A DNA stretch of 45,139 nt from Halorhodospira sp. (lineage in GTDB: Bacteria; Pseudomonadota; Gammaproteobacteria; Nitrococcales; Halorhodospiraceae): NCBI GenBank assembly GCA_007121755.1, contig SKJZ01000202.1:1-45139 (forward strand). Direction: 5' to 3'. A model generated the notes under the pieces. The model saw only the letters and a list, made by a program, of their open reading frames with translations, did not search any database and had not been told where the DNA came from. Every line of letters starts with the position of its first letter. Within the stretch, counting starts at the first letter, position 1. The translations under genes were made by a program, and so were the position numbers. This document shows, piece after piece, positions 1,257-43,974 of this stretch.

Positions 1257-2722
1257 GTTTGTTTCCGCTCCCCGCGGTCAGCGGCCTGTTCCGGCGCTAC
1301 CGGCAAGGTAACGCGAAAGCACGTGTCACCCGGACGGCTATCCACCGAGATCCCGCCACCGAGTTGCTCGACCAGTTGATACGTCACCCAAAGCCCCAAG
1401 CCGGTTCCGCTGCCGCCGGTATCGGCAAAGGGCTCAAAAAGACGGTCTTTCTGGCTCTCTGAAATGTGGCCGCCGTCGTTGCTCACCTCCAGCACCAACT
1501 CATCACCGGTAAAGGCGGCGCGCATTGTGACCTCTCCGCCACTGTCCGCGGCCCGGACAGCGTTGAGCAAGAGATTGATCAGAATCTGCCTCACCGGCGT
1601 CGCCGGTACCGACACCGCCTCCGGCAGGTCCACCCGCCAGTCCAACTGAATGGAGCGCTGGCGGAGATCGTGATCCACCAACATTCTCACATCCTGGACG
1701 TCGCTCCGGGTGAGCGGATCCTTGGTAATTCGCGCCTCGACCAGCAAGGCGCCGACAATGTCACGAATCTGCAGCAACCCGCGCTCGATAAGCGACATCG
1801 TTCTCTGCGTGAAGGGATCGGTGTCCGCATGCCGCCGATAGGTATTTACCGCATTCAGCATGCCGCCCAGCGGATTGTTGATTTCATGCGCGATCCCCGC
1901 CGACAACCGGCCGATGGCCGCAAGGCGGTCAGAACGCACCACTTGCCGTTCCAGATCCTGCTTCTGCTCCAACTCCAACAGCATGGCCGCGAACCGCTCG
2001 TAGAGGCGCGCCACCTCGTCTCGCCCCTCCGGCGGGGGCATGGCGGCGGCCAATTCGCCGGGGGAGTGGCGTCCAACGGCTTCGATATAGTGTGTCAACC
2101 GAATCAGCGGCTGGGCCACGCGCCACCCCATCCACCAGCCCAACGGCAACAGGGCCGCGAGAACCGCCAATGTCGCCACCACCACTTGGATCAGGCCGGC
2201 GTGAAAACGGTCGAAAAAGCCGGGCCGGTCGTAACGCATGAGCACCGTCCCCAAGCGCGCGCCGTCCATTGCCACCGGGATCAACAACCACCACCCGGTA
2301 TCGTCGCGCAGCCTCCCCGCGGCCTCTTCCCGCACAAGCTTGGCCAGGGTCTCCAGCGTGCCGCCGTCATCGTCGCCGACCCCCAGCATGGTTTGCACCC
2401 GGAACCGTTCTGGATCGCTGGAGACGTACACCAGCGCGCGCCGGTCGAGCACGATAATAGTGGACGGGCGGCGGTGCTCCTCCATGGCGGCTTCCATCGG
2501 AGTGTTCACCACTTCCCACGCCCGCCACAAATCGTCCCGAAGCATCACCGGCGCGAGGCTTTCCGCGAGAACGCGGCCCAAGCTCTCCCCGTGCTCGCTG
2601 AGTTCGCGCTCAGCGTCCCGCCAAGCGTGTCCTAGCGCCGCAGCTGAGATGGTAACGGCGGTGACGACTACCACCAACACGATTTGCAACGGCACCTTGG
2701 TCCGATAGTTCAGACCCTTCAC
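1253..2722 (-). CDS. arxS: Membrane sensor histidine kinase (ArxS/AioS-like)
   Basis: 489 aa; N-terminal TM, periplasmic segment, second TM/HAMP-like region, HisKA GRLSAGIAHEINNPLGGML, HATPase GGSGTGLGLWVTYQLVEQLGG. Sits between the PhnD-like protein and the sigma54 regulator with overlapping ends. Confidence 0.88.
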   Translation of the reverse strand: MKGLNYRTKVPLQIVLVVVVTAVTISAAALGHAWRDAERELSEHGESLGRVLAESLAPVMLRDDLWRAWEVVNTPMEAAMEEHRRPSTIIVLDRRALVYVSSDPERFRVQTMLGVGDDDGGTLETLAKLVREEAAGRLRDDTGWWLLIPVAMDGARLGTVLMRYDRPGFFDRFHAGLIQVVVATLAVLAALLPLGWWMGWRVAQPLIRLTHYIEAVGRHSPGELAAAMPPPEGRDEVARLYERFAAMLLELEQKQDLERQVVRSDRLAAIGRLSAGIAHEINNPLGGMLNAVNTYRRHADTDPFTQRTMSLIERGLLQIRDIVGALLVEARITKDPLTRSDVQDVRMLVDHDLRQRSIQLDWRVDLPEAVSVPATPVRQILINLLLNAVRAADSGGEVTMRAAFTGDELVLEVSNDGGHISESQKDRLFEPFADTGGSGTGLGLWVTYQLVEQLGGGISVDSRPGDTCFRVTLPVAPEQAADRGERKQT

Positions 2723-3615
2723 CGCCGCGCTGCCTCCACGCGGGCCGTCATCCGCCGGATGTCATCGTAGTCGGACCCGTCCGCCTCGCCGAACCCGTCC
2801 AAGTTCAGTCCGTCCAGGATCCGGCGCCCCTCTTCGTCGTCCTCCATGCCGGTGAGCGCCTCTCGGAACGCCTTGAACGTCTGTTTATCCAGGCCCGCGG
2901 CCGCGACCAGAGGAGGAAAACCGAAGGCAGGGGAGCGTTCCACAATATGGAGCCTGCGGACCAAATCCGGCTCATGGCGTTCCAACGTTTCATAAACGTA
3001 CCCGTCCACGGCACCGCCGTCAGCCAACCCCACGGCCACCGCGTGGATCACCTTGCGGTGGCTCCAGGTAAAAAAGGTGCGCGAGAAAAAGGTGTCGGGG
3101 TCATGTCCGCCCTCCATCAGCCGGTAGGTCGGATAGAGCCACCCCGAATTCGAGTCGGGGTCCGCAAAGGCGAAGACACCACCCTCCAGTGACTCCAGGC
3201 CATTCGTTGGCGCGCCGGCGATAATGTATGAACGGTAGAGCGGCTTCCCGCGGTACAGCGGACTCGCCACGAGGCGCAGTTCGGCGGCGTGAACGACGTA
3301 GGGATACCCGCAAAGCCACGCCGCGTCGAGTCCCCCGGCCCGCAGGAGGTTGACGATCTCTTCGTAACTGGTCCGGCGCAACATCTCTACCGGCCGTTGC
3401 AGCCGCGTCTCCAGATCTTCCCGCCAACCCCGCAGCAACTGGATCCGCTCATCAAGGATAACCGGCGTAAGCCCGAGCTTGAAAGGCGCCCGGGGAGGGG
3501 ATCCGCGGTCCGGCGCGGCCGATGGAGCTGATAACCCCGTCAGCAACACGGCGGCGGCCATTCGCTTCAGAAGCTGCCTCCGACTCAACGTTACGCTCAA
3601 GTAACCTCCCGCCAC
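2719..3615 (-). CDS. arxX: PhnD-family periplasmic binding protein (ArxX/AioX-like arsenite sensor)
   Basis: 298 aa; Tat-like N-terminus SRRQLLKRMAAAVLLTGLSA; PhnD-type fold cues (KLGLTPVILDERIQLLRGWREDLETRLQRPVEML, DPDSNSGWLYPTYRLM). Overlaps the kinase start. The true start could be downstream (TTG codons near 3600/3588). Confidence 0.8.
   Translation of the reverse strand: MAGGYLSVTLSRRQLLKRMAAAVLLTGLSAPSAAPDRGSPPRAPFKLGLTPVILDERIQLLRGWREDLETRLQRPVEMLRRTSYEEIVNLLRAGGLDAAWLCGYPYVVHAAELRLVASPLYRGKPLYRSYIIAGAPTNGLESLEGGVFAFADPDSNSGWLYPTYRLMEGGHDPDTFFSRTFFTWSHRKVIHAVAVGLADGGAVDGYVYETLERHEPDLVRRLHIVERSPAFGFPPLVAAAGLDKQTFKAFREALTGMEDDEEGRRILDGLNLDGFGEADGSDYDDIRRMTARVEAARR
3590..3605. promoter_or_regulatory. 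Candidate ArxR upstream activating site 1 (GTTAC-GCTCAA-GTAAC)
   Basis: Perfect 5-bp inverted repeat with 6-bp spacer; same architecture as 3633-3648; about 174 bp upstream of the predicted sigma54 start site. Confidence 0.55.
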
Positions 3616-3632: not shown

Positions 3633-3648
3633 GTTACCGGCCCGTAAC
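3633..3648. promoter_or_regulatory. Candidate ArxR upstream activating site 2 (GTTAC-CGGCCC-GTAAC)
   Basis: Perfect 5-bp inverted repeat with 6-bp spacer, centre 43 bp from site 1 (about 4 helical turns). An extra GTAAC half-site is at 3616-3620. Confidence 0.6.
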
Positions 3649-3743: not shown

Positions 3744-3759
3744 TGGCATGTGCCTTGCT
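3744..3759 (+). promoter_or_regulatory. Sigma54 (RpoN) -24/-12 promoter of the arx operon
   Basis: TGGCATG-TGCC-TTGCT fits TGGCAYR-N4-TTGCW at every position, with correct GG/GC spacing; located between the UAS-like palindromes and arxB'. Confidence 0.85.
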
Positions 3760-3877: not shown

Positions 3878-5158
3878 ATGGAAGAGAACAGCCCGGCAGC
3901 CCGGGCGTATCGGCCGTTGCGCACCGATGTCGCCGCAGTCACCTTCGTAACCGAGGGCTGCCTGCCGGTGCGCTCACCTCTCTCGGATTGTGCATCGTGC
4001 GCCGAGGCGTGCCCCGTGGGCGCGCTTACCGTGGGGTGGCGGGGACCCTCTCTCGCGGATGGATGCCTGCATTGCGGGCGTTGCGCGGCGGCATGCCCGA
4101 CAGGCGCCATCCGCGTCGCCGGTTTTCCTCGCTTGGCGCTTCCGGATCTTCAAGCGGCTCGTGCCGAAGACGGGCCGCTTGAGGTCGACTGCTGGCGCGT
4201 TCCCCGTGAACGCTCGCCGGCCGGCGCACTTCGTGTCCCCTGTCTCGGTGGCCTCGACGCTGGCACCCTGGCCGCCCTGCACGCCCGCCACCCCGCCGGA
4301 GTCGTCCTGCTGGACCGCGGCTGGTGCGGCGGCTGTCCGGCCGGGGGACGCCCTCCGCTCCAAGAAGAGGCAGTAACGGCCGCCGCCGGCGCACTGGTCG
4401 CGGCGGGCGCCGATCCTGAACACGCGCCGCGCATTGAACACCGGCCACTGCCCGGACAGTCCGCCCGGCCCGAGATACCCGACGCGATGGCGGAACGCGC
4501 CGTCAGCCGCCGGGGACTCTTTCGCCACTTGGCTGGCCGCGCCGCCGCAACCGCCGAACAGTGGCAGGACGGGGCCGGCGAGGGTCCGGCGCCCGGCGGA
4601 CTCGCCCAGCCGCTGCGCGCCCTCCCCAGAGAGCGTCTGGTGGCCGCGCTCCGCCGTATCACGTCAGCCGGCATTCCCGCCGAGGCCTCGCCGGCCGCGC
4701 GGATGAACAGTGATCTCTGCGCCAACCACCGGATCTGCGCCTCTCTTTGCCCCACCGGAGCGCTGCGTGGTGTCGAGGACGGCGACGGCGCCGGCCTCGA
4801 CTTCGATCCGGCGACCTGCATCGGCTGTGAGCTGTGCAGCCGTGTCTGCCCTGAAGGCGCGCTGCAAATCGGGCGCGCGGGCGGCCAAAGCGTTCTTCAC
4901 CCGCTGACCCGCCACAGCGTGGCGCGATGCAGCGATTGCGGGCGCCCCTTCACCGCCGGTGAAGGGCGCGACCGCTGCCCCAACTGCCGTAAAGATCAAG
5001 AGCTTTTGACCGGAGGCGTCTACGAGGCGCTCTTCGGCCATCCCCCCGAAGCCGTGGGTTCCGGCACTCCTGCCGGCACTGCGGCCCCGGGTCCACAAGA
5101 GGCGTTCCACGCCAATATGTCGAGAGGGAAGGAGGCATTCCATGACCGACGTTCTTAA
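3878..5158 (+). CDS. arxB': Multi-cluster 4Fe-4S ferredoxin-type protein (ArxB'-like) with C-terminal zinc-ribbon-like motif
   Basis: 426 aa; CASCAEACPVG, CLHCGRCAAACPTG, CANHRICASLCPTG, CIGCELCSRVCPEG; C-terminal CSDCGRPF..CPNC. Strong RBS (aggaggagagg). Overlaps arxA. Confidence 0.82.
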   Translation: MEENSPAARAYRPLRTDVAAVTFVTEGCLPVRSPLSDCASCAEACPVGALTVGWRGPSLADGCLHCGRCAAACPTGAIRVAGFPRLALPDLQAARAEDGPLEVDCWRVPRERSPAGALRVPCLGGLDAGTLAALHARHPAGVVLLDRGWCGGCPAGGRPPLQEEAVTAAAGALVAAGADPEHAPRIEHRPLPGQSARPEIPDAMAERAVSRRGLFRHLAGRAAATAEQWQDGAGEGPAPGGLAQPLRALPRERLVAALRRITSAGIPAEASPAARMNSDLCANHRICASLCPTGALRGVEDGDGAGLDFDPATCIGCELCSRVCPEGALQIGRAGGQSVLHPLTRHSVARCSDCGRPFTAGEGRDRCPNCRKDQELLTGGVYEALFGHPPEAVGSGTPAGTAAPGPQEAFHANMSRGKEAFHDRRS

Positions 5159-7646
5159 CGCCAAGTTCACCCGGAGGCGCTTTCTACAGGCTTCCGGCGC
5201 CACGGGAGCCGCGGCCGCCGGCACTGCCGGTATCGGCAAGCTGGTCGGCTTCTCCGCCGCTGGCGCATCATCCCGGGAGGCGCGCGCCGCTAGCCGCGGG
5301 CAAACCACGGTTACCAAGAATATATGCGCCCAATGTCCGGCCCGTTGTGGCATCGACGTCTACACCACCAACGGCCGCGTGCATGCAATCTATGGCGATA
5401 CCGGCAACCCCATCGCCAACGGCAAGCTCTGCCCGAAGGGCCACCTCGGCACTTACTTCCTCTACGACCCCGATCGTTTCAAGGGGCCAATGAAGCGCAC
5501 CAACCCGAGCAAGGGTCGTAACGAGGATCCCGGCTTCGTACCAATTTCATGGGACGAGGCCCTGAACACCGTCGCGGAGCGGATCAACCGCCTGCGTGAG
5601 AACGGCGAGGCCCACCGCTTCGCCCACTTCTATGGCCGCGGCTGGGGCTCCTCCGACGCCGGCCTCTACGGCGACTTCGGCAAGCTTATCGGGACGCCGA
5701 ATTCGGCCATAGGCCACGCCTCCATGTGCGCCGAGGGCTCCAAGCGCGCCAAGGCGGCCACCGACGGCAACAATTCGTACAACTCCTACGACTACGCGAA
5801 TACCAACTACATCCTCAACTTCGGCGCGTCGTTCCTAGAGGCGTTCCGCCCCTACAACTACCTGATGCAGATGTGGGGCCACATGCGCAGCAAGAGCCCG
5901 ATGACGCGGACCACCGCGGTCGACGTGCGCATGAACCCGACATTGGCCGCCGCCGACCGCGCGGTGATGGTCAAGCCCGGCACCGACGGCGCCATGGCGT
6001 TGGCCATCGCCCACGTCATTCTCGTTGAAGAGCTGTGGAACAAGGACTTCGTCGGCGATTTCCGTGACGGCCGCAACCGTTTCCGCACCGGACAGCGCGT
6101 CCCGGCCGGCAGCTTCGATGAGAAGTGGACCTACGGACTTGTCGAGTGGTGGAACGCCGAACTCAAGGATCGCACCCCCGAGTGGGCCGAGGGCGTCTGC
6201 GGAGTCTCCGCCGACCAGATCACCGCGGTCGCCCGGGAGTTCGGCACCACCCGCCCCGCGATGGCCATTATGGAGCGTGGGCCGACCGCGCACACCAACG
6301 GCGTCTACAACGGCATGGCTATCCATGCGCTGAATGCGCTGTCCGGCTGCATGTACGCCGAGGGCGGGCTCTTCTATCAGATGGGACCGTCTTACGGGGG
6401 GCTGCCCGCCAACTCCGACGACTACATGGACAACATCTCCCGGGAGATGCAGGGCAGGCATCCGCGCATCGACATGGCGGGCACGGACCGGTGGCCGATG
6501 AGCGGCCATATGATGCAGGAGACGGCGAAGAACCATAACGCCGGCGATCCCTACAAGCTCGACACGGCAATGTTCTTCTACACCAACCCGATCTGGACGG
6601 CGCCCGACACCGCCGAGTGGGAGAAGATGATGGCGGAGATTTTCGTCATCGACACTTCCCCCTTCCCCGGCGAGACGGCGATGTTCGCCGACCTGATCCT
6701 GCCGGACCACACCTACTTGGAGCGGCTGCAGGACTCACCGACCTATCCGTTCGAGGGTTGGCCGATGGCGGCTCTGCGGGTGCCGGCGGTCGATCCGATC
6801 TACGACACCAAGCACTTTGGCGACACCCTGATCGAGATCGGCAAGCGAATCAACGGACCGATCGGCGATTTCTACCGTGAACTCGACAACGTTGAGAACT
6901 GCCTGCGCCACCGGGCGGCCGGCTTCAGCGACGATCCGGGCGACAACGGCGTCAGGGACTTTGAAACCTGGAAGGAGAAGGGAGTGTGGTACCGCAAGCC
7001 GTACCACTGGAAGCAGCACCGCGGTGTCTTTTACGAGTGGGACGGTGACGGCTACAACAAAGTCATGACCGAGGAGGAGGTCGGCGAGAAGCTGCTGAAG
7101 ACTGGATCGGGCAAGTTCGAGTTCAAATCGAGCTTCCTGGAGGGCAACGCCGGCTACATCACCGGTGAACTCGGTGTCTCCCGCAACCGCGTTGGCTATC
7201 CGCAGTGGCTTGAGCCGCGGCACACCGGTGGGGACCGGCCGCTGCACTTCATTACGCCGAAGGTGCCGATGACCGCGGAGGGGCGCAGCGGCAACATCCC
7301 GCACGCCATCGCGCAGATGCAGCCGATGGTCGGCGGCAACCAGACCACCTTCCTGGAAATCCATCCGCAGACCGCGCGCGCGCGCGGCATCCGGGACGGA
7401 GACCGGGTGAAGATCACCTCGGATCTGGGGAGCATCTACGCCTACGCGCGTTACATGCCGTCCAACCGGCCGGACGCCATCGTCCTGCCGTACGAGCACG
7501 GCCACTGGGCGCAAGGGCGCTGGGCAACGGCGCAGGAGCGCAGCGTCAACCCCGGCAACCCCAGCGACATCACCGCGAACATCTCCGACCCGATCTCAGG
7601 GCTTGCCTGTTACTACACCGGCAAAGTCGACCTGGAACGGGCCTGA
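5142..7646 (+). CDS. arxA: Molybdopterin oxidoreductase catalytic subunit, ArxA-type respiratory arsenite oxidase
   Basis: 834 aa; Tat motif TRRRFLQASG; CAQCPARCGID..GKLCPKGH 4Fe-4S motif; HFYGRGWGSSD (GRGWG at 5634-5648); C-terminal molydopterin-dinucleotide-binding-like region (ARGIRDGDRVKITSDLGSI). Gene order B'-A-B-C-D. Confidence 0.85.
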   Translation: MTDVLNAKFTRRRFLQASGATGAAAAGTAGIGKLVGFSAAGASSREARAASRGQTTVTKNICAQCPARCGIDVYTTNGRVHAIYGDTGNPIANGKLCPKGHLGTYFLYDPDRFKGPMKRTNPSKGRNEDPGFVPISWDEALNTVAERINRLRENGEAHRFAHFYGRGWGSSDAGLYGDFGKLIGTPNSAIGHASMCAEGSKRAKAATDGNNSYNSYDYANTNYILNFGASFLEAFRPYNYLMQMWGHMRSKSPMTRTTAVDVRMNPTLAAADRAVMVKPGTDGAMALAIAHVILVEELWNKDFVGDFRDGRNRFRTGQRVPAGSFDEKWTYGLVEWWNAELKDRTPEWAEGVCGVSADQITAVAREFGTTRPAMAIMERGPTAHTNGVYNGMAIHALNALSGCMYAEGGLFYQMGPSYGGLPANSDDYMDNISREMQGRHPRIDMAGTDRWPMSGHMMQETAKNHNAGDPYKLDTAMFFYTNPIWTAPDTAEWEKMMAEIFVIDTSPFPGETAMFADLILPDHTYLERLQDSPTYPFEGWPMAALRVPAVDPIYDTKHFGDTLIEIGKRINGPIGDFYRELDNVENCLRHRAAGFSDDPGDNGVRDFETWKEKGVWYRKPYHWKQHRGVFYEWDGDGYNKVMTEEEVGEKLLKTGSGKFEFKSSFLEGNAGYITGELGVSRNRVGYPQWLEPRHTGGDRPLHFITPKVPMTAEGRSGNIPHAIAQMQPMVGGNQTTFLEIHPQTARARGIRDGDRVKITSDLGSIYAYARYMPSNRPDAIVLPYEHGHWAQGRWATAQERSVNPGNPSDITANISDPISGLACYYTGKVDLERA

Positions 7647-7674
7647 CCCCCGGACTGAAAGGAGTATTTGAGCT

Positions 7675-8427
7675 ATGGCTAAATGGGGAATGGTCATCGA
7701 CCTTGACAAGTGCACCGGGTGCCAGGCGTGCACCACCGCGTGCTCCATGGAGAACAACACGCTGCCGGGCGAAAACTGGCAGGACGTCCTCTACTACCAC
7801 GAAGGCGAGTATCCGAGCGCGCAGATGAAGTGGCTGCCGCGTCCTTGCATGCAGTGTGAGGAGCCGTCGTGCGTCCACGTCTGCCCGACCCGGGCCACCT
7901 ACAAGGACGACGAGGCCGGCGGCATCGTCTTTATCGACTGGAACAAGTGCATCGGCTGCAAGTACTGCATGATCGCCTGCCCGTATGGGGTTAGGTTTTA
8001 CGCTGACGAGCAGCCGCTGGTGGAGCCCGACCTGAAGGCCGCATTCCCTGGCGAGGACGGGCAACTCTGGAGCCCGCCGTACCAGGGGCCGCAGGAGGAT
8101 TGGAGCCGGGGCATCGGCATCCAGCCCAAGGGCGTCGTCTCCAAGTGCACCTTCTGTCACCACAAGGTCAGCCAAGCGCCGGCCGGAACGCCCGATCTTG
8201 ATGAGGACGATCCGGATCTCAAGGAGTACGTGCCGGCGTGCGTGCGCACCTGCCCGCCCAAGGCCCGCTACTTCGGCGACTTGGACAACCCCGAGAGCAA
8301 TGTTAACAAGCTCATCGGTAACAAGCGGGGCGTCCGGTTGAAAGATGAGACCGGCAACCGTCCGCAGGTCTACTACTTGGGCGCCGGCGCGAACATTCCC
8401 GCATTCCAGCGCCGTCAGCGTTCCTGA
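7675..8427 (+). CDS. arxB: 4Fe-4S electron transfer subunit (ArxB-like, DmsB/NrfC family)
   Basis: 250 aa; CTGCQACTTACSMENN, CMQCEEPSCVHVCPTRAT, CIGCKYCMIACPYGVR, CTFCHHKV..CVRTCPPKARYFGD: four cysteine clusters. Confidence 0.9.
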   Translation: MAKWGMVIDLDKCTGCQACTTACSMENNTLPGENWQDVLYYHEGEYPSAQMKWLPRPCMQCEEPSCVHVCPTRATYKDDEAGGIVFIDWNKCIGCKYCMIACPYGVRFYADEQPLVEPDLKAAFPGEDGQLWSPPYQGPQEDWSRGIGIQPKGVVSKCTFCHHKVSQAPAGTPDLDEDDPDLKEYVPACVRTCPPKARYFGDLDNPESNVNKLIGNKRGVRLKDETGNRPQVYYLGAGANIPAFQRRQRS

Positions 8428-8443
8428 AAGGGGGTGAGGAACC

Positions 8444-9643
8444 ATGACCGACAATAACGTTATGAAAGGCTCCGCCGGCACCGGTCTCTTGGTGCTGTCC
8501 TTGTTGGTAATGGTGGCGGGCTTCGGCTATGCCGCCATGAACATGGCGGCCCACGGCCACGCCGCGTTCAACACCGACGCCAACGTCGCATGGGGTCAAC
8601 CCATTTCGACCTATCTGTACTTCGCGCTGGCCTCCTCCGGCCTCGGGCTGCTCGCGGCGGTGCCGCTGGTATTCAAGGTCAAGGAGTACTATCCGGTGGC
8701 GAAGCGCTGCATCTTCCTCGCCTTCATCATCCTGATCTCCGGTATGGCCGTCCTGGCCATGGAACTCGGCCACACCTTCCGGATGATCTGGGCGCTGCCC
8801 TTCGGGATGCAGGTGCAGTCGGCGATGTTCTGGATGGGTGTCCTCTACGCTCTGGATCTGCTCTTTTTGCTCTGGAAGTTCCAGCGCATGGAAGGTCGGG
8901 ACTGGGACAGCAAGACGACCTTGCAGATCGGCATCGCCTCCTTCCTCGGCGTGCTGCTGGCCAGCGGTAATTTGGCGCTGATCTTCGGCATGATGAGCAT
9001 GCGGCCGTTCTGGTTCGATCCGTCGCTGCCCATCTACTTCTACCTGACCGGTATCGCCAGCGGCATGGCCGCGTTGGTCTTCTACACCTATCTCGCCTAC
9101 GGCTTCGATCGGGGGAAGATGCCGGCGGCGCTCAGGCAACTTATGGAAGGCGGCCTGCCGAAGCTTTTCGTCACACTGCTCGGAATCACGTTCCTGTTCA
9201 TTATGGTGCGAATGATCACGGGTCTGTACGCCAACGCCCCGGAGATCAATCTGGTCTGGTCGGACTATATCCTCGCCTCGCCGGTCTACCACATATCGCT
9301 GTGGGGCGGCATCCTGCTGCCGTTCCTGCTGCTGCTCTCCCCGACACTACGGGTGCAGCCGGCGGTACAGGTCGCGTGCGCCGTCCTGGTCTTCGGCGGA
9401 CTGTTCGCGGAGCGCTACTTCTTCGTGGTCGGCGGCCAGGTGATCCCGCTGTTCAAGGGCACCTGGGCCTGGGACATCTCCCAGTACGCCCCGTCGGCAA
9501 CGGAGTGGAGCCTGACGTTCATGGGCGCGGCGATGATCTTCGTGCTCTACGTCCTGGGCGAGAAGATGTTCAACCTCTCCGACAGCCCGGCCGACACCCC
9601 GTCAGGTGCGTCGCAACCGGCGGGCGCCAAGGCTACTGCGTAG
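8444..9643 (+). CDS. arxC: NrfD/PsrC-family polytopic membrane quinone-interacting subunit (ArxC-like)
   Basis: 399 aa; many hydrophobic helices; directly downstream of the FeS subunit, as in CISM-type oxidoreductases. Confidence 0.85.
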   Translation: MTDNNVMKGSAGTGLLVLSLLVMVAGFGYAAMNMAAHGHAAFNTDANVAWGQPISTYLYFALASSGLGLLAAVPLVFKVKEYYPVAKRCIFLAFIILISGMAVLAMELGHTFRMIWALPFGMQVQSAMFWMGVLYALDLLFLLWKFQRMEGRDWDSKTTLQIGIASFLGVLLASGNLALIFGMMSMRPFWFDPSLPIYFYLTGIASGMAALVFYTYLAYGFDRGKMPAALRQLMEGGLPKLFVTLLGITFLFIMVRMITGLYANAPEINLVWSDYILASPVYHISLWGGILLPFLLLLSPTLRVQPAVQVACAVLVFGGLFAERYFFVVGGQVIPLFKGTWAWDISQYAPSATEWSLTFMGAAMIFVLYVLGEKMFNLSDSPADTPSGASQPAGAKATA

Positions 9644-9673
9644 CCACGGCGCACTTGTAACGTAGTATGGTCG

Positions 9674-9703
9674 AAGGGCCGGGTACACCCGGCCCTTCTT
9701 TTG
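9674..9703 (+). terminator. Rho-independent terminator between arxC and arxD
   Basis: AAGGGCCGGG-TACA-CCCGGCCCTT followed by CTTTTG; perfect 10-bp stem. Confidence 0.85.
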
Positions 9704-9756
9704 TCCGGCTCGCGCACGGACCGGAACATCCGTACCAGCAGAGCGGAGCAGAACCG

Positions 9757-10701
9757 ATGAATCGTAACGAACAGCCGTCCGTACCCGACCCGGCGGAGTT
9801 GGACCTCCGCGCCGAACTTCACCTCTGCCTAGGCCGCGCCTTCCTGCCGCCGTCGGAGCCGGAACTGGAACAAGCGCTGGTGGAGGCGCTGCCCCACGAC
9901 CTGCGTGCGCTCAATGAAGCCCTCGGCTACACCGCCGAAAGCAATCCCGAACGGTTCGCCGCCTCGGCCCGTAAGGCATCCACTCAACCCGAGGGCTTGA
10001 TGCGCCTCTACAGCCGTCTCTTTCTAGCGCCGCCGTTCCCCGCGGCTATCAATGCCGGCATCCATCTAGACGGTTCCTTGATGGGCGCCAGCGTGGTCGG
10101 CATGGAGGATTTCTACTTCCGTCACGGTCTGGAGAAGGATCGGGAGTTCAAGGATCTTCCCGACCATCTGGCGCTGCAACTCCAGTTCGTCGCGTACCTG
10201 CTGGAACTGGCCGCCGAGGCACTGCGAGCCGGTGAGGACGAGAAGGCCGCGGAACTCTTGACCGAAACCGCTGCCTTTGAGCAACAGTATATGAAGCGGT
10301 GGCTGCCCCTGCTGATCACCGACATGGAGAAGGCCGAGGCCGAATACGAGGTGCCGGCGGCCTATCGGTACCTGGCAGTGATGGCCCTCGATGCGGTGGC
10401 GTGCGACCTCGAGGCGTGGGGTCGCTGGCCCGGACGCTCCAGTATCACCGAAAGCGCCGAAGCCGATCAGGAGCCGGCAGGACGTCCGGCGGCGGCATCC
10501 GGCGAACGCGCCGCCTGCCGTTGTTGTGGCAATGAGTACCTGCCGGCGGCCGAATTGGCGCAAATGGTCCAAGCCCTTGAGGCGCGCGGGTTGAGCACTG
10601 AACACTTGACCGTCTGCCCTGATTGCAGCGCCGCCGAGATGGGGCTGTCGCCTACCGGGCTCAAGCTTCCGGATGCGGTACGCCGACAGACTGAAAGGTA
10701 A
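9757..10701 (+). CDS. arxD: TorD/DmsD-family maturation chaperone (ArxD-like) with C-terminal zinc-ribbon-like extension
   Basis: ORF track start 9667 precedes/overlaps the terminator; ATG 9757 follows an RBS-like gagcggag. Body has TorD-like features (LYSRLFLAPPFPAAINAGIHLDGSLMG...DLPDHLALQLQFVAYLLELAAEAL); C-terminus CRCCGNEY...CPDCSAAEMG. Confidence 0.78.
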   Translation: MNRNEQPSVPDPAELDLRAELHLCLGRAFLPPSEPELEQALVEALPHDLRALNEALGYTAESNPERFAASARKASTQPEGLMRLYSRLFLAPPFPAAINAGIHLDGSLMGASVVGMEDFYFRHGLEKDREFKDLPDHLALQLQFVAYLLELAAEALRAGEDEKAAELLTETAAFEQQYMKRWLPLLITDMEKAEAEYEVPAAYRYLAVMALDAVACDLEAWGRWPGRSSITESAEADQEPAGRPAAASGERAACRCCGNEYLPAAELAQMVQALEARGLSTEHLTVCPDCSAAEMGLSPTGLKLPDAVRRQTER

Positions 10702-10717
10702 CCACGGCTGGCCCCTC

Positions 10718-11272
10718 ATGCGCCGTCGCGCCCTTACTCCACGACACCTGTTGGCCGCCGCGGTGGTAGCCGCGTTCTGTTGGCAACCCGCCGTAGCGGG
10801 CTTATCCATTGAGGAGTACCTTCCGCCCCAGGAGGAAGGTCTGGACGAAGAGACCCGGCTCCAACGCATGCGGGAGATCGAACAAGAGCGTGAGGAGGCG
10901 CGGCGCCGGGCTGAGGAGCGGGAGCGGCAACTGGAGGAGGACCGGCGGCGGCGGCAGGCCGAATTGGAAGCATTGCCGCCGGGACATCGTGCCTTGTTGG
11001 AGCACTGCGTCGCATGTCACGAGGAACGCGCTCTGCGCCGCACCGGCCGCTCCCGTATCGGCTGGCGCGGCGTCGTTTGGCGCATGGAGATGTTCCAGGG
11101 GGTCGATCTATCCCGAGATGAGCGCCGCTTGATCGTGCGATACTTGGCGGAGGAACACCCTCCCACCGCAGGCCGTATAGCCCGGGAGACCGCAATGGCG
11201 GTTGCCGCGCCGGCGGCCGTCTTTGGTGGTGTTGCCTTCTGGTTGCTCTACCGGCGCAGGAGTCGCAAATGA
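10718..11272 (+). CDS. Membrane-anchored monoheme c-type cytochrome with charged coiled-coil region
   Basis: From ATG 10718: signal peptide (LLAAAVVAAFCWQPAVAG), long E/R-rich coiled coil (QRMREIEQEREEARRRAEERERQLEEDRRRRQAELEAL), CVACH heme motif (11006-11020), WRMEMF methionine candidate ligand, C-terminal TM (AVAAPAAVFGGVAFWLLYRRRSRK). Confidence 0.7.
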   Translation: MRRRALTPRHLLAAAVVAAFCWQPAVAGLSIEEYLPPQEEGLDEETRLQRMREIEQEREEARRRAEERERQLEEDRRRRQAELEALPPGHRALLEHCVACHEERALRRTGRSRIGWRGVVWRMEMFQGVDLSRDERRLIVRYLAEEHPPTAGRIARETAMAVAAPAAVFGGVAFWLLYRRRSRK

Positions 11273-11739
11273 AGATCCGCAAGAACACGGTCGTCTCTGC
11301 CGATTACACGCTCACCACGGAGGGCGGTATCCGCCTCACCGGCAGCGACAGCGAGGGACCGATGGTCTACCTCCACGGCCACCAGCAGGTATTGGACGCC
11401 TTGGAAGACGCACTGGAGGGCGCGGAGCCGAACGAGACACGGTACGTCACCGTTTCGCCCGAAGATGGCTATGGAGAACACGACCCTCGTCTGGTCTTCA
11501 CCGCCCCAAGGGAGAATCTCCCCGATGAACCACTGCGGGAAGGCATGCTGCTGCGGACCACCGAACACGACGGACGCAGCTTCCCGTTACAGGTCGTCGA
11601 AGTCAGCGACGACGGGGCCGCCGTGCTCGACGGCAACCACCCGCTGGCGGGGAAGACGCTCCATTTCGAGATCCAGGTCACCGACGTACGGCCGGCCTCG
11701 TTGGAAGAGGTCCAGCGGCGCCGTGTCACGGAGAACTAA
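11269..11739 (+). CDS. SlyD-like FKBP-type peptidyl-prolyl cis-trans isomerase
   Basis: 156 aa; VSADYTLTTEGG, LHGHQQVLDALEDALEGAEPNETRYVTVSPEDGYGEHDPRLV, DGNHPLAGKTLHFEIQVTDVRPAS typical of the SlyD family. ATGA overlap with the cytochrome stop. Confidence 0.88.
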   Translation: MKIRKNTVVSADYTLTTEGGIRLTGSDSEGPMVYLHGHQQVLDALEDALEGAEPNETRYVTVSPEDGYGEHDPRLVFTAPRENLPDEPLREGMLLRTTEHDGRSFPLQVVEVSDDGAAVLDGNHPLAGKTLHFEIQVTDVRPASLEEVQRRRVTEN

Positions 11740-12404
11740 CTGCTGCTCAAGACTTCCGCCAACCAGGCGTCGATGGCCGCGATCTCTTCCATGCAGACCG
11801 CGTGTTCCATTGGATATTCGCGCCACGCCACTTGGTGACCGAGCCCTTGCAGACAGTCGCGGGCGGCTCGACCCAATTGCAGCGGCACCACCGGATCGTA
11901 ACTCCCGTGGGCCATAAAGATCGGGAGCGTATGGCGGGCGGCGCCCTCGGCGTCGGCACCGCCCGCCAGTGGCGGCAACCAGCAGGAGAGGCCTATCACC
12001 CCTGCCAAGCGCCGGGGATACCGCTGCACCACATGGAGCGCCGTCGCACCGCCTTGGGAGAAACCGGCAACGATCACGCGTTCGGGCGGGACGCCGCGGG
12101 AGTTTTCGTTGTCGATCAGCCGCCGGACCAGTCCTTCGGACTCACGCAGACCCGCCTCGTCGGACGGGGCCGCGCCGCTGAGATCCTTGATGTCGAACCA
12201 GCCGCGCATGGGCATGCCGCCATTCAGCGTGATCGGGCGTACCGGCGCGTGCGGGAAGATGAAACGGACGCCCCGCGCACCGGACCGACGCAGTTCACCG
12301 ACCACTGGCTCAAAGTCGTGGCCATCGGCGCCAAGGCCGTGGAGCCAGATCACACTGGCCGTTACTTGGCCGCCGGTCACAATTTCAACTGGCGCTTCGT
12401 CCAT
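11736..12404 (-). CDS. Alpha/beta hydrolase, carboxylesterase/phospholipase family
   Basis: 222 aa; VIWLHGLGADGHDF, GFSQGGATAL nucleophile elbow, AHGSYDPVVP, EYPMEHAVCMEEI. Confidence 0.88.
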   Translation of the reverse strand: MDEAPVEIVTGGQVTASVIWLHGLGADGHDFEPVVGELRRSGARGVRFIFPHAPVRPITLNGGMPMRGWFDIKDLSGAAPSDEAGLRESEGLVRRLIDNENSRGVPPERVIVAGFSQGGATALHVVQRYPRRLAGVIGLSCWLPPLAGGADAEGAARHTLPIFMAHGSYDPVVPLQLGRAARDCLQGLGHQVAWREYPMEHAVCMEEIAAIDAWLAEVLSSS

Positions 12405-12469
12405 ACCGTCCTCTATACCCGAGAATTTAAGCGGTTATAATCTACCGCCTTGAACGAGGCAATGCTGCC

Positions 12470-12583
12470 ATGCATCGAATCGCCGCTCTAGCCATTATGC
12501 TAACCCTGCTTGCCGCGGGATGCGGGCAGACCGGAGATCTTTATCTCCCGCCACCCCCCGAAGAAGAGGAAAACGACTCGTAA
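12470..12583 (+). CDS. lptM: LptM/YifL-like small lipoprotein
   Basis: Not in ORF track (37 aa): MHRIAALAIMLTLLAAGCGQTGDLYLPPPPEEEENDS; lipobox LAAGC then GQTGDLYLP, characteristic of LptM; immediately upstream of lysA. Confidence 0.85.
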   Translation: MHRIAALAIMLTLLAAGCGQTGDLYLPPPPEEEENDS

Positions 12584-12585
12584 TC

Positions 12586-13839
12586 ATGGCTGAATCCGGT
12601 TTCCATCGCGAAGGTGAAGATCTCTACGCCGAGGGGGTGCCGCTGCAGGAGATTGCGGACCGTTTCGGAACCCCTTGCTACGTCTACTCGCGGGGGGCTA
12701 TCCAGGCACGCTGGGAAAGGTACCGTCAAGCGCTCGGCTCTCAGGGCACGTTGTGCTATGCAGTCAAGGCGAACAGCAATCTTGCCGTTCTCGGTATTCT
12801 CGCTCAAGTAGGCGCCAGCTTTGACATCGTCTCCGCCGGTGAGTTAGCGCGTGTTCTGCGGGCCGGCGGTGACGCTGGCCGGGTGACGTTCTCTGGGGTC
12901 GGCAAAGGTACTCAGGAGATCCGGCGCGCGCTGCTGGCCGGGATTCGCTGCTTTAACGTCGAATCGGGCCAGGAGTTGGAGCGGATCGACCGCATCGCCG
13001 GAGAGGTCGGCGTCAAGGCGACTGTCGCAATACGGATCAACCCCGATGTGGAGGCCGGGACCCACCCTCATATCACGACCGGCGTTGAGGCGAGCAAGTT
13101 CGGGGTACCCCTCGAGGAGGCGGAATCGCTCATTACCGGCGCCGAAAAGTACCGCAACGTGCGGGTACAGGGGTTGGCGTTCCATATAGGCTCGCAGCTC
13201 ACCTCTGTGGCGCCCGTCGCCGAGGCGGCCTCGCGCGTCGCCGCCCTTTACGGCCGCCTGCGGGCCGCGGGTGTGCCGCTGGACCACGTGGACGCGGGTG
13301 GCGGCCTCGGTATCCGTTACGCCGACGAAACCCCGCCGACTCCTAAAGAGCACGTAGAGGCGGTCGCTACCGCCTTCGCTGGCATGGAGCCCCGCCTCTT
13401 TCTGGAGCCTGGGCGCGCTATCGTCGGGGAGGCCGGCGTCCTGCTGACCCGGATCGAGTACTTGAAGAGCCACGGCACGCGGCGCTTCGCAGTGGTGGAC
13501 GCGGGGATGAACGATCACCTCCGGCCAGCCCTCTACGACGCATGGCATGAGATCGAGGCCGTCGGCACCACGCGGCGTTCCGCGGACGCCGTAGACATTG
13601 TTGGGCCGGTTTGTGAATCCGCCGATTCGTTGGGCAAGGACCGTTACCTTGAGGTAACACCCGGGAGCGTGTTGGCAATCTACGCCGCCGGGGCCTACGG
13701 TTTTGTCATGGCCTCGCATTACAACAGCCGGCCGCGGCCCGCCGAGATCATCGTCGACGGCCAGCACGCCCACCTCGTCCGGCGGCGTGAGACGGTCGAC
13801 GACTTGCTGCGCGGCGAGTCGCTACTGCCGCGGGGGTAG
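12586..13839 (+). CDS. lysA: Diaminopimelate decarboxylase
   Basis: MAESGFHREGEDLYAEGVPLQEIADRFGTPCYVYS; CYAVKANSN PLP lysine motif; LEPGRAIVGEAG. Start moved from 12520 to ATG 12586. Confidence 0.95.
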   Translation: MAESGFHREGEDLYAEGVPLQEIADRFGTPCYVYSRGAIQARWERYRQALGSQGTLCYAVKANSNLAVLGILAQVGASFDIVSAGELARVLRAGGDAGRVTFSGVGKGTQEIRRALLAGIRCFNVESGQELERIDRIAGEVGVKATVAIRINPDVEAGTHPHITTGVEASKFGVPLEEAESLITGAEKYRNVRVQGLAFHIGSQLTSVAPVAEAASRVAALYGRLRAAGVPLDHVDAGGGLGIRYADETPPTPKEHVEAVATAFAGMEPRLFLEPGRAIVGEAGVLLTRIEYLKSHGTRRFAVVDAGMNDHLRPALYDAWHEIEAVGTTRRSADAVDIVGPVCESADSLGKDRYLEVTPGSVLAIYAAGAYGFVMASHYNSRPRPAEIIVDGQHAHLVRRRETVDDLLRGESLLPRG

Positions 13840-37582: not shown

Positions 37583-40270
<2,688 letters not shown>

Positions 40271-40284
<14 letters not shown>

Positions 40285-41326
40285 GGTGGGCCCGTCCGCC
40301 GATGAGCCGGTGGATCCTTGCGGACGGGGTATCCGCCAAGGGAAGATCACGGAGATCGATTGCAGTGACGTGAGCTTGGATATTGTAGCCGGCCATGACC
40401 CGCCATACCGCGGTCAGGTGAGCGGTATCCAACTCCGCGGGAAGATCATCGACCAGGAGTAGTGGGGGCGGTTCATGCTCCATCCAGACCTCCACTTCCG
40501 CCAATAAGAGGGCGATGATTGCAAGTTTTTGCTGACCGCGGGACAGGATGTCGCGGGCCGGCCGGCCGTCTGACTGGATCAATAGATCTGCGCGATGTGG
40601 CCCGTTCCGGCTGAAGCCGACCTCCCAGTCCGCCGGCGCGCTCTCTTCAAACACATCGGACCACGCGGCGGCGCTTCCCGTACCCCGTTGATAGCGAATA
40701 GCTAACGGAAGCGATGGAAGCCAACTTTCCATCAATCGATTCCAACGGGTCTCCAGCCGATGGAAAAAACGCATCCGGTTCGCCTCTAAACGCTCGGCCG
40801 ACTCCGCTAACGTCTCCGTCCACACCACCGCGGCACGGGTGTCCGCCTGCCGAATTGCCGCGTTGCGTTGTTGCAGTGCCTGTTGGTAGCGGTGGGCTAT
40901 CGCGTGGTGATCACGTTCCACGTGGAACGCGCCCCAATCCAGGAAGGAGCGGCGGATAGCCGGACCATCGAGTAGCAGCCGCTGATGCTCCGTCGTGATC
41001 AATTGGACCGGCAGGCGTTCGGCCAAACGGGAACGGCCGCGGATATCCGTGCCGTTCAAGCGTAGACGCGTCGCGCCTGGACGCCGCTCCACTCCCAGTT
41101 GGTGGCCGGCGTGCCGACCGGCAACCCAGGCCCGCTCGCTACCTTTTTGGATGACGCGATCGAGGTTGTTGGTCCGAAAGGACTTGGCGCGGGAGAGAAA
41201 GTGGATCGCCTCCAAGAGGCTGGTCTTTCCGGCGCCATTGTCGCCGAGCCAGACATTGAAGCCGGCGGCGGGTTGTACGTCCAGTGGTTCAAGGTTCCGA
41301 AAACCCTGTAGACGCAGACACTCCAT
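40271..41326 (-). CDS. recF: DNA replication/repair protein RecF
   Basis: LRLQGFRNLEPLDVQPAAGFNVWLGDNGAGKTSLLEAIHFLS; ILSRGQQKLAIIALLLAE; LLLVDDLPAELD. Confidence 0.96.
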
Positions 41327-41329
41327 GCC

Positions 41330-42430
41330 CTAAAGGCGCATCGGCATGACTACGTAGCGCGCGCTCTCATCCCCCTCGCCATAGAGCAATCCACTGCTAT
41401 TCGAATCGGTAAGAATAACTTCGACTCTGTCGGCCTCGATTGCTCCCAATGCATCCATCAGATAGTTGGCGTTGAAACCGAGCTCAATTTTCGGGCCGCC
41501 GTACTCAATCTCAAGCTCCTCTTCCGCCTCCTCTTGCTCCGGGTTGTGTGAACCGACACTGAGCCGATCGTCCTCGGCCTGAAACCGAACGCCGCGGTAC
41601 TTTTCATTGGAAAGTATGTAGACGCGGCTTAGAGCCTGTCGAAGAGACTGCCGATCCACCAGCAGCCGCTTATCGCCGCCCTCCGGTATCACCCGTTGGT
41701 AGTCCGGAAAGCGGCCGTCGATGAGCTTCGATGTCAGCCGGATGTCGCCGAGCTGAACGCGGATGTGGTTATCGGCGAACTCGATAGTTGTGGTGTCGTC
41801 ATCGTCACCGAGCAGCCGCAGCAACTCCTGCACCCCTTTTCGCGGGACAATGACTTGTCGCGAACCCTCGATCGCGCCGCCGGTATGCGCTTCCGCGATC
41901 GCCAAGCGGTGTCCATCGGTGGCAACCGTGCGAGTTCCGTCGGTACTGAGCTCGAACAGCAAGCCGTTCAGATAGTAGCGAACATCGTGTTGGGCCATGG
42001 AGAAGTGTGTCCGCTCTATCAACTGCCGAAGTTGATCCCGCGGCAAAGTGACCGTTTCCACCTCCCCTATCGACTCCACCTCAGGGAACTCGGCAGCCGA
42101 TAGCGTCGCCAAGGTGAAGCGACTGCGACCTGAGCGAAGCACCGCCCGTTCCTTTTCGATAGCAACCGTGATGGTGGCGCCCTCGGGCAGATTGCGGCAG
42201 ATATCCAACCACTTCCGTGCCGGGAGAGTCGTTGTACCGGTCGCGACGACATCACAAGGAACGTGGGCAACCAGCTCGACTTCGAGATCAGTAGTGGTCA
42301 GTCGTAGGCCAGACTCTTCGACCTGTACGCGGACATTGCCCAGCACCGGCAAGGTCTGGCGGCGCTCGACGACTCCGATCAAAGAGTGCAGCGGGCCCAG
42401 AAGGGTTTCACGAGTCGCCTCGAAACGCAT
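41330..42430 (-). CDS. dnaN: DNA polymerase III beta sliding clamp
   Basis: MRFEATRETLLGPLHSLIGVVERRQTLPVLGNVRV; C-terminal YVVMPMRL. Confidence 0.97.
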   Translation of the reverse strand: MRFEATRETLLGPLHSLIGVVERRQTLPVLGNVRVQVEESGLRLTTTDLEVELVAHVPCDVVATGTTTLPARKWLDICRNLPEGATITVAIEKERAVLRSGRSRFTLATLSAAEFPEVESIGEVETVTLPRDQLRQLIERTHFSMAQHDVRYYLNGLLFELSTDGTRTVATDGHRLAIAEAHTGGAIEGSRQVIVPRKGVQELLRLLGDDDDTTTIEFADNHIRVQLGDIRLTSKLIDGRFPDYQRVIPEGGDKRLLVDRQSLRQALSRVYILSNEKYRGVRFQAEDDRLSVGSHNPEQEEAEEELEIEYGGPKIELGFNANYLMDALGAIEADRVEVILTDSNSSGLLYGEGDESARYVVMPMRL

Positions 42431-42642
42431 AGTTACCCTCTTCTTTGTATTAAGGGTCTATATAAGACCATCTGTTATTACTACTGGACGTCCAAAAGGT
42501 GGATGTCGAGGTTAACATGTTGTTGTAGCGCCAATATTTGGCAATAGTAACGTCCCTGGAAAACGGTGGCGAGCTTGTGGACAGATTGGGGGGAACTCGT
42601 CCGCTGCTCTAGCCTTCACACTTCATCCACAGGTTATCTAGC
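42431..42642. other. Candidate oriC/dnaN promoter region (AT-rich dnaN-dnaA intergenic)
   Basis: Locally AT-rich (TATTAAGGGTCTATATAAGACC...); DnaA-box-like TCATCCACA (42623-42631) and reverse-strand CTGTCCACA (42588-42596). Confidence 0.35.
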
Positions 42643-43974
42643 TTATGTGCTAAGGGTTCGTAACAGGTTGTCATAGTCCTCACTGATCCGGGCATCGGTC
42701 TCGATCAGTTCGCGGACCTTGCGGCAAGCGTGGAGCACGGTGGTATGGTCCCGTCCTCCGAACGCGTCGCCAATTTCCGGGAGCGAATGGGTGGTCAACT
42801 CCTTGGCGAGATGCATCGCCAACTGGCGCGGCCGAGTGATGGAGCGGTTGCGCCGCTTCGAGAGTAGGTCACCGACTCGTATTTTATAGTAAGCGGCGAC
42901 AGTCTTTTGGATGTTATCAATCGTCACAAGCTTTTGCTGCAGGGCCAGAAGATCGCGCAGCGCCTCCTTGGTGAACTCCAGGTCTATCTTGCGGCCGGTG
43001 AATTGCGCGTTGGCAGCGATGCGGCGCAGAGCGCCCTCGAGTTCGCGGACGTTGGAGCGGATCCGCTTGGCCACGAAGAAGGCGACCTCATCGGGAAGGT
43101 CGATGCCGCTACGGTCGGCCTTGCTCTTTAGTATGGCGACGCGGGTCTCGAGCTCGGGCGGCTCGATCGCAACGGTCAAACCCCACCCGAAACGCGATTT
43201 GAGGCGCTCCTCGAGACCGTTTACCTCCTTTGGGTAACGGTCGCAGGTCATGATGACCTGCTGGCCGCCCTCAAGAAGCGCGTTGAAGGTATGGAAGAAC
43301 TCCTCTTGTGAGCGCTCCTTGCCAGCGAAGAACTGGATATCATCGATCAATAGGGCGTCGAGATTGCGGTAGTGGCGTTTGAAATCGTCGATGGAGTTGT
43401 GTTGCAAAGCCTTGACCATCTCGGCGACGAAGCGCTCGGAGTGGAGATAGACGACCTTGGCGTTTGGGCGGGCCGCGAGCGTGGCATTGCCTACGGCGTG
43501 CATCAGGTGGGTCTTGCCGAGTCCGACACCCCCGTAAATAAACAACGGGTTGTAGGCGATACCTGGGTTTTCCGCTACTTGCATACTCGCAGCCCGGGCG
43601 AGTTGGTTTGATTTACCTTCGACGAAGGTGTCGAAGGTAAACCGGGGATTGAGGTTGTGCTGCGCGGTGCGTGGCTCCGGCGCACGGGCGGATTGTTGAC
43701 TGGCGACAGGGTTGGGTTCCGTGGGTATGTTGGAACTGCCGACCTCGAATTGGAGGTCGGGCGGGTCATCGGGACGGACTGCGGCGAGGAGTTCCCGAAT
43801 GCGGTCTCCGAAGTGGTCGCGCACCCAATCGAGCACAAAGCGGTTGGGTGCTAGTAGTCGGACGGTGTCGGGCGTCTCATGGGCGTGCAGCGGGCGCACC
43901 CAAGTGTTCAACTGCTGGTCCGGGACCTCGCGCTCCAGTTGCCGTAGGCAGTGGCTCCACAGAGAGTCTTGCAT
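42643..43974 (-). CDS. dnaA: Chromosomal replication initiator DnaA
   Basis: [87 protein letters not shown]-type DNA-binding domain. Confidence 0.98.

Follow-up and report, generated by a model that had tools for sequence, protein, structure and literature searches.

A complete Arx-type locus with its own putative arsenic sensor and a predicted ArxR operator in a Halorhodospira-family gammaproteobacterium

The window, i.e. the whole stretch of DNA analysed here, is an entire contig of 45,139 bp that carries an arxB'-arxA-arxB-arxC-arxD operon on its forward strand (3878–10701), with all five ORFs intact and in the canonical order. The first gene, arxB' (also called arxB2; 3878–5158), encodes a ferredoxin-like 4Fe-4S protein with 4Fe-4S ferredoxin domains at each end, followed by arxA (5142–7646) for the catalytic molybdopterin subunit of 834 aa with a twin-arginine signal and an Fe4S4 domain, arxB (7675–8427) for a multi-cluster 4Fe-4S electron-transfer subunit, arxC (8444–9643) for an NrfD-type membrane subunit (PF03916) and arxD (9667–10701) for a TorD/NarJ-like chaperone (PF02613) whose start may plausibly be an internal ATG near 9757. 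A preliminary description had recognised this span as an Arx-type B'-A-B-C-D operon, with a ferredoxin gene ahead of arxA and FeS, NrfD-like and TorD-like genes behind it. The intact ORFs, their order and their Pfam and NCBIfam domains confirm this, and the locus extends further on both sides: the span so described omits the divergent arxX-arxS-arxR genes and the downstream cytochrome and FKBP genes.

The three divergent genes lie on the reverse strand and encode a periplasmic oxyanion-binding protein of the PhnD-like family (arxX, 2719–3615; PF12974), a HAMP sensor histidine kinase (arxS, 1253–2722) and a sigma-54-dependent response regulator with a receiver and an AAA+ domain containing GAFTGA (arxR, 3–1256; 418 aa). 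The C-terminus of the latter is missing because the contig start cuts the gene. On the forward strand, the operon is followed by a gene for a monohaem c-type cytochrome (10673–11272; haem motif CVACH) with a signal-like N-terminus and a C-terminal membrane anchor, which may plausibly start at an ATG near 10718, and by a gene for a SlyD-like FKBP peptidyl-prolyl isomerase (11269–11739). Among 61 relatives' loci, 24 have the FKBP gene after arxD, and in nearly all of these 24 the ArxA is near that of the window. The cytochrome gene does not qualify as a fixed arx component: present after arx in 12/61 loci, it is an optional neighbour. Elsewhere in the window, a gyrB-recF-dnaN-dnaA run occupies 37583–43974, which puts the arx locus about 33 kb from dnaA.

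The ORFs of arxX and arxB' are separated by a gap of 262 bp. Upstream of arxB', a sigma-54 −24/−12 promoter-like site (TGGCATGTGCCTTGCT; 3744–3759, forward strand) is the top-scoring match of its kind in the whole window. When one mismatch is allowed, the strict pattern TGGCACNNNNNTTGC was found once across the window versus three expected, i.e. it is not rarer than chance, so that the credibility of the site comes from where it lies, how it ranks by score and the fact that it recurs in relatives rather than from pattern rarity. Still further upstream lie two 16-bp palindromes of the form GTTAC-N6-GTAAC, 43 bp apart, which we propose as ArxR operators: GTTACGCTCAAGTAAC at 3590–3605 and GTTACCGGCCCGTAAC at 3633–3648. 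As the former falls in the first codons of the called arxX ORF, the true start of arxX is probably further inside than the call at 3615. A GAFTGA-containing AAA+ regulator, an RpoN promoter and an upstream palindrome, the features that mark XSR-type sigma-54 regulation, are all found together here. The same palindrome occurs exactly a third time (GTTACCTTGAGGTAAC) inside lysA (13643–13658) and once more on contig C144 of the same genome; both of these copies may be there by chance.

The identity of the catalytic subunit could be assessed in several ways. ArxA carries the Tat motif RRRFLQ (the TAT_signal Pfam match is weak, just below its cut-off) and the motif HFYGRGWGSS at about residues 162–171, in agreement with the Tat-signalled molybdopterin oxidoreductase of the preliminary description, and keeps the 4Fe-4S cysteines C62/C65/C69/C97 as well as the Mo-ligand cysteine C196. 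XGRGWG as opposed to (R/K)GRY has been given as the discriminator between ArxA and ArrA by Ospino et al. (PMC6549141). The same distinction, also drawn in the preliminary description, holds up in our alignment: of the 91 rows that were scored as ArxA, 90 have GRGWG and the remaining one is a mis-sorted non-ArxA fragment, versus GRY in 9/9 ArrA rows, and the window protein has GRGWG at that place. The nearest solved structure is that of ArrA, in which R165, H189, C193 and K198 are substrate- or Mo-binding positions; these align with R166, H192, C196 and K201 of the window ArxA. The lysine at residue 201 (window about 5742–5744) is kept in the window's group, and about half of the ArxA proteins have Ile, Val, Met or Glu at the equivalent position.

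Profile scores and trees point the same way. Against the NCBIfam ArrA model the window ArxA reaches 454 bits (cut-off, 1600), and an ArrA identity is rejected by this score, by GRGWG in the place of GRY and by the trees. Similarly, TtrA and PhsA are rejected with scores far under their cut-offs, as is AioA, whose model TIGR02693 gave no match to the window protein among 24 families and whose partner is the Rieske protein AioB instead of the 4Fe-4S protein ArxB. A tree of 59 rows unites the ArxA rows in a single clade separate from seven ArrA-side rows, and a 27-row maximum-likelihood tree supports the ArxA/ArrA split at 100/100 and groups the window, its sister species and three Thioalkalivibrio at 99/100. 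The 834-aa protein is hence placed inside the ArxA clade, one of two outcomes on which the preliminary description had made its reading depend. The clade was anchored by named loci of Thioalkalivibrio, Halomonas, Ectothiorhodospira, Aromatoleum and Sulfuricella skB26, with MLHE-1 and PHS-1 left out; these anchors are described arx carriers or close relatives thereof (PMC6549141, PMC8877833). The window ArxA is 92% identical to the protein of a same-genus sister, and a dN/dS of ~0.085 between the two indicates purifying selection on arxA; together with a gene order, arxB'ABCD, that is repeated across dozens of loci, this argues that the feature is not due to chance. With tree, motif, gene order and regulators in agreement, and with arxABC in order and arxB2, arxD and arxXSR nearby, as defines membership of the ArxA group, it is well supported that the window holds a complete Arx-type locus and an ordinary member of the Arx family.

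The defining Arx locus is arxRSX-arxB2ABCD of Alkalilimnicola ehrlichii MLHE-1, which belongs to group 1 of Ospino et al. 2019 (PMC6549141). As judged from its published description (PMC6549141), it resembles the window in gene set, gene order and divergent regulators; both represent the haloalkaliphilic gammaproteobacterial branch and a chemotrophic, nitrate-linked setting, and the window differs in its additional cytochrome c and FKBP genes. The nearest named ArxA proteins, with 78–82% identity, come from haloalkaliphilic Thioalkalivibrio (loci L025, L027 and L028), which share the operators and the sigma-54 promoter of the window, whereas their ArxS and ArxX are 43–44% and 48–52% identical, respectively, and the ArxC of L025 is only 46% identical. 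A putative Halorhodospira halophila from the same family has the same arxB'ABCD order, yet its ArxA is only 66% identical and lies elsewhere in the tree, and, unlike the window's host, it is a phototroph without arxXSR and without the palindrome.

What the enzyme may do for its host can be read from the genome to which the window belongs (G000; 82% complete, 2.2 Mb, 279 contigs) and from that of the same-genus sister (G001; 81% complete). The former carries aa3 and cbb3 oxidases, RuBisCO and a NapA in two fragments, which is full length in the sister; cytochrome oxidases and RuBisCO likewise occur in both genomes. These genes support a coupling to nitrate or oxygen, and the likeliest use of Arx, judged from gene content, would be As(III)-driven respiration of nitrate or oxygen by a chemolithoautotroph. 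The sister is the metagenome-assembled genome labelled Halorhodospira sp. isolate CSSed162cmB_289, from a series of isolates that turn up next to Thioalkalivibrio among the matches, which suggests that the host originates from soda-lake sediment. A second large molybdopterin enzyme of the host (L125 463–3351, contig C42) comes nearest to thiosulfate/tetrathionate-type models and is possibly SoeA-like; a SoeABC-like enzyme has been proposed for aerobic arsenite oxidation in Thioalkalivibrio (PMC6620896).

We consider it highly probable that the window encodes a complete respiratory arsenite oxidase with its own arsenic sensor, working along the following lines. ArxD would mature ArxA, which would be exported to the periplasm via Tat and oxidise As(III) at its Mo centre on the periplasmic side. 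Electrons would travel via the ArxB clusters to ArxC in the membrane and on to the quinone pool, from where they could reach NapA (nitrate) or the aa3/cbb3 oxidases and support RuBisCO-based CO2 fixation, with the cytochrome encoded downstream as a possible side outlet. On the regulatory side, ArxX would bind an arsenic oxyanion and ArxS would phosphorylate ArxR, which would then bind the GTTAC-N6-GTAAC pair as an enhancer and activate the sigma-54 promoter at 3744–3759. Gene content, phylogeny, motifs, promoter elements and co-occurrence with arxXSR were computed here, and we infer catalytic direction, electron route, acceptors and ArxR binding. Arsenite oxidation has been demonstrated in four arx gammaproteobacteria including MLHE-1, plus strain M52 (PMC6549141). 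Counting against this reading, Thioalkalivibrio jannaschii exposed aerobically to arsenite upregulates arxB2 and not arxABC (PMC6620896), most arx-bearing Ectothiorhodospira did not grow on arsenite (PMC8877833), and an Acr3 efflux gene was not found in the 82% of the host genome that is covered.

The preliminary description had also suggested coupling to anaerobic or photosynthetic electron flow, of which the respiratory part, to nitrate or oxygen, fits the NapA, aa3 and cbb3 genes and the photosynthetic part does not hold. A coupling in which electrons from As(III) enter a purple-bacterial reaction centre, like that of Ectothiorhodospira PHS-1, would not be out of place in a family with phototrophs such as H. 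halophila SL1, a reported arsenite oxidiser (PMC6549141). However, no reaction-centre genes (PF00124) were found in either the host (82% complete) or its sister (81%), where the same search retrieves two in the putative H. halophila (G002), and the window ArxA falls outside the H. halophila lineage, which together leave photosynthetic coupling very improbable. arx genes in the Halorhodospira family do not, then, imply arsenite-driven photosynthesis, and a non-phototrophic genus of this family joins those bacteria for which arsenite respiration is possible in principle.

The complex might instead run in reverse as a respiratory arsenate reductase. ArxA sits on ArrA's branch and, according to a review, is bidirectional in vitro (PMC7533571), which also counts against the preferred arsenite oxidase. 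Still, GRGWG rather than GRY, the placement in the ArxA clade and a genome equipped for oxygen and nitrate respiration and with RuBisCO make the reductive direction unlikely. Slimmer yet are the prospects of a main substrate other than As(III), such as a thioarsenic, antimony or sulfur species: polysulfide/thiosulfate and menaquinone-related relatives do rank next after ArrA by score, but the XSR regulation is of the type that senses arsenic oxyanions (PMC5908839), and the window ArxA is nested within the ArxA of arsenite oxidisers.

Within the family, the history of ArxA appears to be one of exchange. Three genera of the Halorhodospira family have ArxA proteins from three parts of the tree, and monophyly of ArxA among four family members was rejected by the AU test. 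Downstream of arx, the window (11269–13839) and a further family member (G004, L015 14666–17385) share the neighbourhood FKBP, alpha/beta hydrolase (reverse strand) and lysA even though their ArxA proteins belong to different parts of the tree, suggesting that arx genes have been exchanged at a fixed chromosomal site.

What the analysis adds to the known Arx system is mainly a sharpened prediction of how it is regulated. The one proposed ArxR site that we found in a search of the literature outside subscription journals is the partial gtaacaattcaagc of MLHE-1 (PMC5908839), and the role of ArxRS was still without experimental demonstration as of 2019 (PMC6683785). The palindromes of the window are most likely, as judged from sequence, the ArxR operator, akin to the site footprinted for AioR: the aioXSR-aioBA system has a homologous three-component regulation and an RpoN promoter, and the sequence protected by AioR in Agrobacterium, GTTCGGATTTCCGAAC, forms a 16-bp palindrome shaped like the window boxes (PMC5335332), with the half-site GTTCG versus GTTAC. 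AioA itself, unlike the window ArxA, belongs to a different superfamily branch and has a Rieske partner.

In 1.75 Mb of fetched DNA, which includes overlapping loci, a spacer of 6 separates the half-sites in 92 cases, and all other spacer lengths between 0 and 15 together account for only two. Among the 46 loci that contain arxX and reach far enough upstream, at least one exact box precedes the operon in 39 and two boxes do so in 26, mostly 42–43 bp apart from start to start and otherwise mainly 33 bp; the palindrome is found in none of the 17 loci judged to lack arxX. The association of box and arxX has a Fisher p of 3e-10, although the loci are related and this is not a true independent-sample probability. 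Five of the seven exceptions are Rhodobacterales-type loci (L038, L044, L078, L102 and L155), in which ArxR is without GAFTGA, the loop used by sigma-54 activators, and the operons are without the palindrome; of the other two, one has boxes with one mismatch each and one (L090) has a rearranged operon. A box pair 33 bp apart also occurs in a genome of the same order without an ArxA match (G025; L173 about 5052–12008), between arxX/arxS/arxR-like genes and an AioBA-like operon, whose genes we take from their translations to encode a Rieske AioB and, after it, an AioA-like protein.

GTTAC-N6-GTAAC, usually paired with 42–43 or 33 bp between starts, thus quite likely serves sigma-54-type ArxR in general as its operator. 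The palindrome has been retained at arx loci across many families, is absent without arxXSR (Halomonas, Nitrincola, H. halophila) or without GAFTGA (Rhodobacterales) and is common to an XSR-linked aio operon, and it could be used to predict arsenite-regulated genes from sequence alone. With such an operator, a short DNA fragment is enough to test the role of ArxRS, and the arx loci controlled by ArxXSR can be predicted.

Copies of the palindrome are also seen in other settings. Azoarcus/Aromatoleum arx loci have an extra exact palindrome within arxB', the position of which hardly varies between them (L083 5279, L086 7284, L089 7281, L092 7290, L094 7281 and L096 7279). Finally, plasmid pAZKH of Azoarcus sp. 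KH32C (L157 1–8862) encodes a distant molybdopterin enzyme with 27% identity to ArxA, together with divergent genes for PhnD-like, kinase and sigma-54 regulator proteins and one GTTAC-N6-GTAAC palindrome.
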